This document shows positions 60,300-64,000 of a stretch of DNA of 64,000 bases, one piece after another. Origin of the DNA: Desulfuromonas sp. AOP6. Lineage in GTDB: Bacteria; Desulfobacterota; Desulfuromonadia; Desulfuromonadales; SZUA-540. Within the stretch, counting starts at the first letter, position 1. The number at the start of each line of letters is the position of its first letter. The position numbers and the translations under genes were made by a program. The stretch covers positions 3,066,001 to 3,130,000 of the forward strand of contig NZ_AP022810.1 in NCBI RefSeq assembly GCF_009731355.2, read 5' to 3'. Below the pieces are notes generated by a model that was given only the letters and a program-made list of their open reading frames with translations, did not search any database and was not told the DNA's origin.

Positions 60300-61658
60300 A
60301 TGACGACCTTCATCAAACCCAACCTGGATCACCCCATTGACTCCCGGCAAGACCTCGTCGCCTACCTGTCCCGCGGCGTCAAGCCACGGAGGGACTGGGG
60401 CATCGGCGCCGAGATGGAAAAGCTGGTGGTTGATGCCGAAACGGGTCGGGCCGCCTCCTATCCCCGTATTCGCGCCCTGCTCGAATTATTGCTGGCCGAC
60501 GGTGCCTGGAGTGGCATTTACGAGGGGCCCAATCTCATCGCTCTGAAAGACGCTTCCTCATCGGTCACCCTGGAGCCGGGGGGTCAGCTGGAGCTTTCCG
60601 GCGCCCTCTGCGCCGATATCCACTGCTGCCAAAAAGGCTTTTCCCAGCATATCGACGGCATCATCCGCGCCGGTCGCACCCTCGGCCTGCGTTTTCTCGG
60701 ACTGGGAGTACAGCCCTTCAGTCGCCTGCAGGAGATCGGCTGGGTTCCCAAGGCCCGCTACGATATCATGGGGCCCTACATGCAGCACACAGGCGATATG
60801 GGTCAGCGGATGATGAAGCAGAGCGCCGGCCTGCAGGTCAATTTCGACTACAGCAGTGAAGAAGACTGCTTTCGCAAGCTGCGCCTGGCCTTTCACCTTT
60901 CCCCTCTGTTCTACGCTCTTTTCGCCAATTCCCCTCTCATGGACGGCATCCCCAGCGGTTTTCTCTCCACTCGGGGCGAAATATGGGCCCGTACCGACGC
61001 CGACCGCAGCGGCCTGGTACCCCGCCTGCTCCTGCCGGGAGCCACCTTCAACGATTATGCCGACTACGCCCTTGACGTGCCGATGTATTTCATCATCCGC
61101 GACGGCCAGTATGTCGATTTCACCAGGGAGCGGTTCACCTTTCGCCGCTACCTCGCCGACGGCTTCGGCCCGCACCGCGCCACCCTCGGCGACTGGGACC
61201 TGCATCTCTCCACCCTCTTTCCCGAAGCACGCCTGCGGCCGCACATCGAAATCCGCTCCGCCGACAGCCTCCCTTCCCGGGCGACCCTGGCGGTGGCAGC
61301 CCTGGTCAAAGGGATCTTTTACGACGAGCAAGCCCTCGCCGACAGCCTGGCCCTTTTTGAAACGGTGGATACCGAGACCTTTGCCATCCTCTACCGCCAG
61401 TCCTGGCGCCTCGGCCTGCAAACCCCCTTTGGCGCCGGCACCCTGCAGACCCTGGCCCTGGATATTCTTGCCATCGCTCGCGACAGCCTGCGGCGGCAAC
61501 GGGCTCTCGATGAGGAAGGCCAGGACGAAACCGTCTACCTGCAGGACGTCGAAGAGATCGCCGTTACGGGTAAAACCCTGGCAGAGCGCCTGCTGGAGCG
61601 CTGGCAGGGCTCCCACGAGGATAAGCTGAACGCGCTGTACGCCCATTGCGGCTTCTGA
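60300..61658 (+). CDS. gshA: Glutamate-cysteine ligase, plant/proteobacterial type
   Basis: A 452-residue enzyme making gamma-glutamylcysteine from Glu, Cys and ATP. WGIGAEMEKLVVD (glutamate and metal site), LEPGGQLELSGALC, and GPYMQHTGDMGQRMMKQSAGLQVNFDYSSEEDC are the plant-type GCS2 signatures, with HLSTLFPEARLRPHIEIRSADS in the C-terminal part. A GGGAGG site precedes the ATG. No gshB is adjacent, so either it lies elsewhere or gamma-glutamylcysteine itself is used. It is separated from transketolase by a 572-base gap. Confidence 0.94.
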   Translation: MTTFIKPNLDHPIDSRQDLVAYLSRGVKPRRDWGIGAEMEKLVVDAETGRAASYPRIRALLELLLADGAWSGIYEGPNLIALKDASSSVTLEPGGQLELSGALCADIHCCQKGFSQHIDGIIRAGRTLGLRFLGLGVQPFSRLQEIGWVPKARYDIMGPYMQHTGDMGQRMMKQSAGLQVNFDYSSEEDCFRKLRLAFHLSPLFYALFANSPLMDGIPSGFLSTRGEIWARTDADRSGLVPRLLLPGATFNDYADYALDVPMYFIIRDGQYVDFTRERFTFRRYLADGFGPHRATLGDWDLHLSTLFPEARLRPHIEIRSADSLPSRATLAVAALVKGIFYDEQALADSLALFETVDTETFAILYRQSWRLGLQTPFGAGTLQTLALDILAIARDSLRRQRALDEEGQDETVYLQDVEEIAVTGKTLAERLLERWQGSHEDKLNALYAHCGF

Positions 61659-61754
61659 GAAGTCCTTCCGACTGTCCATTTGCACAGTCCGCCACTGTTC
61701 CTCCGCAAGCCAATCTTTACGCATCGACACGTAGGCAGGCCTGGCCAAAAGGGA

Positions 61755-61880
61755 TATAGTCAGAACCATCAAAGGCTTGTTGTGGCAGGCGAGCCGGCGA
61801 TAAAAACCTCCTTTCGTTATCTTCGTTGGTTATCGGGCCGGTCAAAAGGGATGCCTCCCCCACTTGACCGGCCCGAAATC
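61755..61880 (+). ncRNA. Structured RNA candidate A (tandem pair)
   Basis: A conserved core at 61755-61803 (ATAGTCA...CATCAAAGG...GGCAGGCGAG) can form GGCUUG/CGAGCC. It is followed by single-stranded CCUCC (61807-61811) and a perfect 11-bp stem (GGGCCGGTCAA 61835-61845; TTGACCGGCCC 61864-61874) whose inner GGG/CCC stem closes an AUGCCUCC loop (61851-61858). A short T-rich stretch follows (ATCTTT). Length about 125 bases. It is not translated convincingly: no ribosome binding site fits the overlapping frames. Confidence 0.55.
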
Positions 61881-61937
61881 TTTGCAGCCGCAACCGCAGC
61901 ACTCTCCATCGACTGCACAAAAGCACAGTTCATCGGC

Positions 61938-61971
61938 GTGCCTTCTTATCCCGAGGTTTACGGGAAGGCAC
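61938..61971 (+). repeat. Inverted repeat between the two RNA candidates
   Basis: GTGCCTTC pairs with GAAGGCAC at its ends, with an inner CCCG/CGGG stem. There is no T-run. It could be part of the leader of RNA candidate B. Confidence 0.4.
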
Positions 61972-61995
61972 GTGGAAAAGCGTGACCCCGGCAGG

Positions 61996-62125
61996 TATAG
62001 TCAAAACCATCAAAGGCTTGTTGTGGCAGGCGAGCTGGCGATAACTTCTTCATTGCAAACCTCCCGAACAATCAAGGCCGAAAGCAGGGATGCCTCCCCC
62101 TGACTTCGGCCTTGAGTCTTTTTGG
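61996..62125 (+). ncRNA. Structured RNA candidate B (tandem pair)
   Basis: A second copy 241 bases downstream of A. Its core at 61996-62044 differs from A at only a few positions, including C to T at the end of the GGCUUG/CGAGC stem, which keeps a G-U pair. CCUCC is at 62060-62064. A 10-bp stem (CAAGGCCGAA 62073-62082; TTCGGCCTTG 62105-62114) encloses CAGGG/CCCUG and the same AUGCCUCC loop (62090-62097). It ends in GAGTCTTTTT, a real Rho-independent terminator on the plus strand, 105 bases before tkt. Confidence 0.6.
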
Positions 62126-62230
62126 CCCGGATAATTCTCAGCCAAGGCCCCTTATGACTTGCAGATTCCTTGAAATGGGATTGCTTTCCTGCTTCAATGG
62201 AGCAGAACCCGCACCCTGCAAGGAGATGCC

Positions 62231-64000
62231 ATGAAAAATCCTGACTTCAAGGTCCCTGCTGTCAAGGCTTCTATCGACACCCTGCGCCTGCTATCGGCCG
62301 ACATGGTGGAACAGGCCAACTCCGGCCATCCTGGCACCCCCATGGAGGCGGCGCCTCTGGCCTATCTCCTCTTTCAGCGCCACCTGCGGCATAACCCCGC
62401 GAATCCGGCCTGGCCGGGCCGGGACCGCTTCATCCTCTCCTGCGGGCACGCCTCCGCACTGCTCTACAGCCTGCTGCACCTGAGCGGCTACGACCTCTCT
62501 CTCGACGATCTCCAAAACTTCCGCCAACTCGACAGCCGCACCCCCGGCCACCCCGAATTCGGCCACACCCCCGGCGTCGAGACGACCACCGGACCCTTGG
62601 GGCAGGGCTTCGCCGTCGGCGTCGGCATGGCCATGGGAGCCCGCCACCTCGCGCAAACTATCGACACCCAGCTTTTCGATACCCGCGTCTACACCATCTG
62701 CTCCGACGGCGACCTTATGGAAGGGGTGGCGTCCGAGGCGGCGTCCCTGGCGGGGCATCTACGCCTGGGCAACCTCATCTCCCTCTACCTCGACAACCGC
62801 ATCACCATCGAGGGGGAAACCGACCTGGCTTTCAGCGAAGAGGTCGCCACGCGTTTTCTCGCCTACGGCTGGCAGGTACAGCGGGTGGAAGGGGAGAATC
62901 TGGCCGAAATCGACGCGGCTATCGAGGCGGCCAAGAAGGATCCGCGACCGTCCCTCATTATCGCCCGCACCCATATCGGCTTCGGCGCTCCCACCAAGCA
63001 GGACACCGCCGAGGCCCACGGCGCTCCCCTCGGCGCCAACGAACTGGCGCAGACCAAGCGGGCCTTCGGCCGCAAGCCCGACGGGCACTTTGTCATCCCC
63101 GCCAGTGTGCGCCAGCACATGGGCCAGGCCGTCCGCCGCGGCCGCGCCTGGGAGCTTCAATGGACACGCCGCTTTGATCGCCTGAACCAGTCCCTGCATT
63201 CACCCCTGACGGCCTGGCTGCAGATGCGCGAAGGTGGCCTGCCAGACGGTTGGGGGGAGGATCTGCCGACCTTCGACCCTGCCGACGGCCCCTTGGCCAC
63301 CCGCAAGGCTAGCGGCATCGTCCTTAACGCCCTGGCCGCCCGGCTCCCCCTGCTGTTAGGCGGCTCGGCCGACCTCGCCCCTTCCAACAACACCGAACTC
63401 AAGGGTGAGGCCGCCTTTCGCCCCGGTCACAGCGGCCGCAATATTCACTTCGGCGTGCGGGAACACGCCATGGGAGCCATTCTCAACGGCCTCGCCCACA
63501 CCGACGGCCTCATCCCCTTCGGCGGCACCTTTCTCATCTTCTCCGAATACATGCGACCGCCCATGCGCCTGGCCGCCATGATGGGGCTGGCCCCCATCTA
63601 CGTCTTTACCCACGACTCCATCGGCCTTGGCGAGGACGGTCCCACCCACCAACCGGTGGAACAGCTCGCCGCCCTGCGGGCCGTGCCTAACCTCCGCGTC
63701 ATCCGTCCCGGCGACGCCAACGAAACGGCGGTCGCCTGGCACGAGGCCATCGCGCACCGAAGTGGTCCCACCGCCCTTATTCTCTCCCGCCAGAACCTGC
63801 CCATCCTGGACCGCGGCAAACTCGCTTCGGCAGAGGGGCTGCGGCGCGGCGGCTATGTACTGGCCTCGGAGGAAGGCGATCTCGATATACTGCTGCTGGC
63901 CAGCGGCTCGGAAGTCTCCCTCGCCTTGAAGGCCCGGGACATGTTGCAGCAACAAGGGAAGGGGACCCGGGTCGTCTCCCTGCCTTGCTGGGAGCTCTTC
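62231..64000 (+). CDS. tkt: Transketolase (3' end outside window)
   Basis: 590 residues are visible of a roughly 660-residue thiamine-diphosphate enzyme. [18 protein letters not shown] and [26 protein letters not shown] open it. The diphosphate-metal motif is [30 protein letters not shown], and the pyrimidine domain includes [17 protein letters not shown] and [35 protein letters not shown]. It links the pentose phosphate pathway to glycolysis by moving two-carbon units. An AAGGAG site precedes the ATG. RNA candidate B ends 105 bases upstream. Confidence 0.96.

Follow-up and report, generated by a model that had tools for sequence, protein, structure and literature searches.

Two copies of a structured element lie in the genome of Desulfuromonas sp. 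AOP6 between a gene of the glutamate-cysteine ligase family 2 (gshA-like) and the transketolase gene tkt (Table 1), near the end of the window, by which we mean the whole 64,000-nucleotide stretch of DNA that was analysed. They are found at about 61764-61885 and 62004-62122, with a start-to-start spacing of 241 nt. The initial annotation had described them as a tandem pair of homologous structured RNAs, and this description holds: they share a 49-nt core with 96% identity, and each has a better fold than any of 200 dinucleotide-shuffled sequences (z = -4.1 and -3.2). As the core includes the -10 hexamer TATAGT, it is partly promoter and not all RNA, and the similarity between the copies extends about 100 bp farther upstream, in a 135-nt repeat (70%) that corresponds to the conserved promoter. 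Transcription of copy 1 presumably starts near 61764-61767. The terminal stems, topped by an identical AGGGATGCCTCCCCC, differ in sequence between the copies yet pair perfectly in each, over 13 bp in copy 1 (TCGGGCCGGTCAA/TTGACCGGCCCGA) and 11 bp in copy 2 (TCAAGGCCGAA/TTCGGCCTTGA) rather than the 11 and 10 bp originally given, and CCTCC occurs twice per copy as claimed, once in the linker and once in the terminator loop. A third copy in the same genome (G000:C1:2666647-2666757, L063) is strongly diverged (35.7 bits) and has a new terminator stem, with its promoter elements intact and a linker that retains CUUCUUCAU...CUCC.

Table 1. Positions of the two RNA copies, their predicted promoter elements and the neighbouring genes within the window
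Feature	Position	Strand	Details
Glutamate-cysteine ligase family 2 (GCS2, gshA-like)	60300-61658	+	upstream neighbour; PF04107, E 9.4e-58
Copy 1 upstream palindrome	61672-61687	.	CTGTCCATTTGCACAG; about 79-94 bp before CCATC
Copy 1 dyad/-35 box	61714-61735	+	TCTTTACG-n6-CACGTAGG
Copy 1 -10 hexamer	61755-61760	+	TATAGT; information content
Predicted sRNA copy 1	61763-61884	+	covariance model R1, 105.0 bits, E 6.5e-27
Copy 1 hairpin 1	61774-61795	+	GGCUUG-UUGUGGCAGG-CGAGCC
Copy 1 linker	61796-61832	+	putative anti-SD ACCUCCUUU at 61806-61814, 16S 3' tail-like
Copy 1 terminator hairpin	61833-61876	+	loop AUGCCUCC at 61851-61858; weak U tract TCTTT
Copy 2 upstream palindrome	61913-61928	.	CTGCACAAAAGCACAG
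Copy 2 dyad/-35 box	61955-61977	+	GGTTTACG-n6-CACGTGGAA
Copy 2 -10 hexamer	61996-62001	+	TATAGT
Predicted sRNA copy 2	62004-62122	+	covariance model R1, 103.3 bits, E 2.2e-26
Copy 2 hairpin 1	62015-62036	+	GGCUUG-UUGUGGCAGG-CGAGCU
Copy 2 linker	62037-62066	+	CUUCUUCAU (62045-62053), n6, CCUCCC (62060-62065)
Copy 2 terminator hairpin	62067-62120	+	loop AUGCCUCC at 62090-62097; end TCTTTTT
Transketolase (tkt)	62231-64000	+	downstream neighbour; PF00456, E 7.4e-126; continues past window end

A multi-copy RNA family in the Desulfuromonadales

The two copies are members of a multi-copy RNA family that is new to Rfam and, as sampled, confined to the order Desulfuromonadales. An initial DNA search gave matches in 30 of 58 relatives, the named ones being MAGs of this order, with Geoalkalibacter and Desulfuromonas among them. 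With a covariance model (R1) built from 30 copies (alignment A2), matches were found in 96 of the order's 136 genomes, each of which has 1-9 copies; they cover 64 of 84 high-quality genomes and 44 of 53 genera. Since the copies are related by descent, copy counts overstate the number of independent events. In a class-wide search of 277 genomes, these 136 included, none of the approximately 141 genomes outside the Desulfuromonadales had a match. Three weak matches in the phylum outside the order (L070, L071, L072) were, on inspection, terminator-only or due to chance, and antisense matches of the model are palindromic terminators. The comparison with Rfam (release 15) that the initial annotation had proposed yielded no match at the gathering threshold in the window or in eight relatives; below the threshold only microRNA models appeared, which are look-alikes of the long stem. 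Neither the literature covered by our search, with subscription papers outside its scope, nor the main text of the motif surveys of 2010 and 2024 describes the family.

The RNA consists of a first hairpin with the consensus GGCYUG-UUGUGGCAGG-CRRGCC, a CU-rich linker and a second hairpin, the terminator. The loop region of hairpin 1, with its invariant UUGUGGCAGG, is the most conserved part. In a MAFFT alignment of 30 copies, fitted independently of structure, 88.9% of cells are paired and 16 of 22 pairs show double-sided changes; this pairing was reached by none of 500 shuffles, and it falls to 52-56% when the partner is slid by one column. The larger alignment A4 (53 copies) was aligned to the model and leans towards structure, with 93.4% of cells paired and double-sided changes in all 22 pairs; for hairpin 1 the values are 95.6% and six of six. 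RNAalifold, run independently, recovers the same two hairpins. Relatives in which stem pairing is lost, which the initial annotation had raised as a counterargument, were not seen. The terminator stem is followed by at least four T in 24 of 33 copies and by TTT in six more.

When 53 regions upstream of the RNAs were aligned without gaps on CCATC, three elements emerged at fixed positions: a 16-bp palindrome, CTGTGCA-ww-TGCACAG, from -94 to -79 (50 of 53 copies, at a lenient threshold), a dyad, TTTTTACG-n6-CACGTGG, over the -35 region from -52 to -32 (47 of 53), and TATAGT from -11 to -6 (42 of 53). From the sequence, TTTTTACG and CGTGGAAA read as inverted half-sites over -35. The palindrome fits CTGT-N8-ACAG, the spacing of the E. 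coli LexA box. In genome-wide searches with the palindrome and with the dyad, the best matches were the siblings themselves; a wider regulon or a regulator was not found by these searches, other matches being near control level. The fixed spacing of the elements, together with the siblings being their best genomic matches, suggests a dedicated activator, to which all siblings may answer. With multiple homologous RNA genes, each with its own predicted promoter and terminator, the family has the organization of a sibling sRNA class.

Sites complementary to the Shine-Dalgarno sequence

What might such RNAs recognize? The terminator loop, typically (A)UGCCUCCCC or (A)UGCCUCCUCC, contains CCUCC in 44 of 53 copies; among other terminator-like hairpins from the window and the loci, one of 129 does. 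In predicted folds the loop motif is unpaired at a value of at least 0.76 in copies 1 and 2, as is CUCC in copy 3 (at least 0.89); of the CCUCC motifs in the linkers, that of copy 1 is open and that of copy 2 is paired in the minimum-energy fold. Across the family, the linkers are enriched in related motifs: CUCC is found in 41 of 53 copies against 22.0 in dinucleotide shuffles, CUCCUUU, which resembles the 3' tail of 16S rRNA, in 17 against 1.8, and CUUCAU-n-CUCC in 10 against 0.1. The last of these corresponds, as reverse complement, to SD-n-AUG-AAG; copy 2 (62045-62065) and the third copy show it most clearly. In some linkers the complementarity spans a whole SD-AUG-AAG-AAG start region; in copy 2, CUUCUUCAU-n6-CCUCCC has GGGAGG-n6-AUGAAGAAG as its reverse complement. 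Within the genus, the distinct linkers of the two siblings are kept in three genomes (G000, G001, G002), with ACCUCCUUUCG in copy 1 and CUUCUUCAU-n-CUCC in copy 2. The family thus carries conserved, exposed C/U-rich sites complementary to the Shine-Dalgarno sequence, as is the case in sibling anti-SD sRNAs.

Calculated duplex energies over 50 gene-start regions of the window show that the linkers pair better there than with coding sequence (p = 9.5e-05 for the copy 2 linker), part of this preference reflecting pyrimidine content, as a reversed-sequence control shows it too (p = 0.007). A search for the pattern GGGAG-n4-9-ATGAARAAG returned a few candidates in each genome, among them several exported or multihaem proteins, which is no evidence of targeting because the pattern itself favours signal peptides.

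On the minus strand, the complement of the copy 2 linker (62036-62066) forms a perfect start region and opens a 31-aa frame (MKKLSPARLPQQAFDGFDYTCRGHAFPRAFP), whose stop codon is the TAA in the TTTACG promoter box; only a few relatives have a frame of equal length.

Proposed function of the sibling RNAs

We consider it likely, judging from sequence comparison, that the copies are independently transcribed, terminator-ended, trans-acting anti-SD sibling sRNAs of about 120 nt, probably assisted by Hfq. The trans-acting reading builds on the compensatory changes, the retained CCUCC of the loop, the separate promoters and terminators, and the many unrelated loci. Each sibling would be transcribed from a promoter of the shared type, under one common activator binding the palindrome near -85 and the dyad over -35, and would end at its own terminator. 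Hairpin 1 would then form a conserved 5' module, perhaps serving stability or as a protein or secondary pairing site, and the CU-rich linker and the CCUCC of the terminator loop would be anti-Shine-Dalgarno seeds that pair with the ribosome-binding sites of mRNAs, in some copies extending over the start codon and the first Lys codons. Such pairing would repress translation, probably with the help of Hfq. The hfq gene was found in 54 of 56 relatives searched, this genome included, and together with the U-tailed 3' terminator this is consistent with an Hfq-dependent sRNA, the U tract of copy 1 being weak.

The alternative that fares best, though we regard it as unlikely, is that the sRNAs act mainly as a protein sponge, for instance via the invariant UUGUGGCAGG hairpin, and that CCUCC is secondary. 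The strong conservation of the hairpin 1 loop region would agree with this, RNAs that sequester CsrA typically also come as multi-copy siblings, and CsrA is active in Geobacter (PMC11934962). However, the repeated GGA motifs that a sponge of the CsrB/RsmY type carries in several hairpin loops are absent from the alignment, the GGGA at the terminator loop varies among copies, and sequestration would leave the preserved CCUCC and the pyrimidine linkers unexplained.

The initial annotation had offered two readings, sRNAs that block ribosome-binding sites or a tandem leader element of tkt. Comparative anatomy favours the former, and a cis-regulatory leader, be it a riboswitch or an attenuator, now appears highly improbable. 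Both copies of the window do lie between gshA and tkt, an arrangement that recurs in about 15-18 of the 40 loci and spans several families. However, each copy has its own predicted promoter and a terminal terminator, and in relatives the last sibling precedes tkt by 87, 109, 223, 305, 588, 613 or about 750 bp, rather than holding a constant 5' UTR position before the same gene. In 22 of the 40 loci examined, a gshA or tkt match is absent beside the copy and the siblings adjoin unrelated genes, where most genomes carry further copies. It is this variable gap, together with the many copies at unrelated loci, that makes a leader function unlikely; in addition, the conserved loop resembles an anti-SD seed, unlike an aptamer-like core. 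At one locus (L021:498-1624) of a genome with eight copies (G051), a gene similar to that of peptide methionine sulfoxide reductase (msrA) has a sibling on either side; along with gshA, the usual neighbour elsewhere, this hints at a redox theme.

Protein coding was considered on both strands. A match of one frame to a known protein family, which the initial annotation would have taken as an argument against RNAs, was not seen, and sense-strand frames are not conserved. It is also hardly credible that the conservation stems from a minus-strand small protein (MKKLSPARLPQQAFDG...) of about 31 aa that has an SD of its own. On the opposite strand of copy 2, GGGAGG-TTTGCA-ATGAAGAAG leads into a frame that runs uninterrupted to a TAA, 31-aa frames resembling it are present in L037, L011, L016 and L039, and three variable hairpin positions coincide with third codon positions; but an in-frame ATG is present in only about 10 of 51 copies, a start codon is absent in 27 of 51, and a 1-nt deletion shifts the frame in the g32 clade. 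Moreover, changes on one side of the hairpin 1 stem are compensated on the other (at one pair, CG in 25 and UA in 24), and promoter and terminator are both oriented along the plus strand. Finally, a mobile or repetitive DNA element of the MITE/REP type, as might be suspected from the multiple intergenic copies and palindromic segments, is extremely improbable given the gshA/tkt synteny that is stable across families, the fixed promoter spacing, the divergence with compensatory changes, the low copy number (1-9) and the lack of any visible unit-spanning terminal repeats.

Among known systems, the proposed anti-SD sRNAs resemble several in what appears to be their working principle only; Rfam searches found no homology. 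Neisseria NmsRA and NmsRB (NgncR_162/163) are likewise tandem, structurally near-identical sRNAs within one intergenic region, and their topology of a stem-loop, a UC-rich linker and a stem-loop with a UC-rich loop matches that of the family (PMC5362039). However, they have three stem-loops, whereas here the second is the terminator, and they are betaproteobacterial, exist in two copies only and have a different promoter, with targets in the TCA and methylcitrate cycles; no sequence relation was found through Rfam. The multi-copy LhrC1-5 of Listeria bind the SD region of lapB through CU-rich UCCC sites that are present redundantly, in loop A, the linker and the terminator loop (PMC4132741), a redundancy that the present family shares, but its hairpin 1 lacks UCCC and has the invariant UUGUGGCAGG instead, and the regulator of LhrC is LisR. 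The pneumococcal csRNAs, several similar sRNAs controlled by one regulator, CiaR (in the present family, a putative one), show complementarity that reaches the start codon, as in some family linkers (PMC4507080); their hosts are Gram-positive, and the likeness is one of principle. A CU-rich anti-SD seed in homologous multi-copy sRNAs also characterizes the alphaproteobacterial AbcR1/2 (PMC8844928). In contrast to these CUCCUCCC-type RNAs, the motif here is CCUCC, hairpin 1 is different, the host group is distant, and there is no Rfam match; the CUCCUCCC octamer, found in an exposed loop in the alphaproteobacterial type, is not conserved in the family.

A more daring extension, which we put forward as doubtful, is a division of labour between the tandem siblings: one class would read the whole initiation region GGGAG(G)-n(4-9)-AUG-AAG-AAG, next to a companion with the 16S-tail-like ACCUCCUUU, and the pair would target the exported proteins and cytochromes of these metal- and sulfur-respiring bacteria. 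Starts with an SD followed by Met-Lys-Lys are typical of exported proteins, lipoproteins and c-type cytochromes, and if the proposal is true, a class of mRNAs would be recognized by the start that its members share. For the family as a whole, our literature searches found no trans-acting sRNA of its kind described in the Desulfuromonadales. Present in most genera of the order, in as many as nine copies per genome and with an unusual shared promoter, the family is a candidate global regulator, and its order-wide promoter regulon provides a handle for finding the putative activator. The design of sibling RNAs with anti-Shine-Dalgarno sites, known from Neisseria, Listeria and streptococci, would also appear to have arisen here independently.
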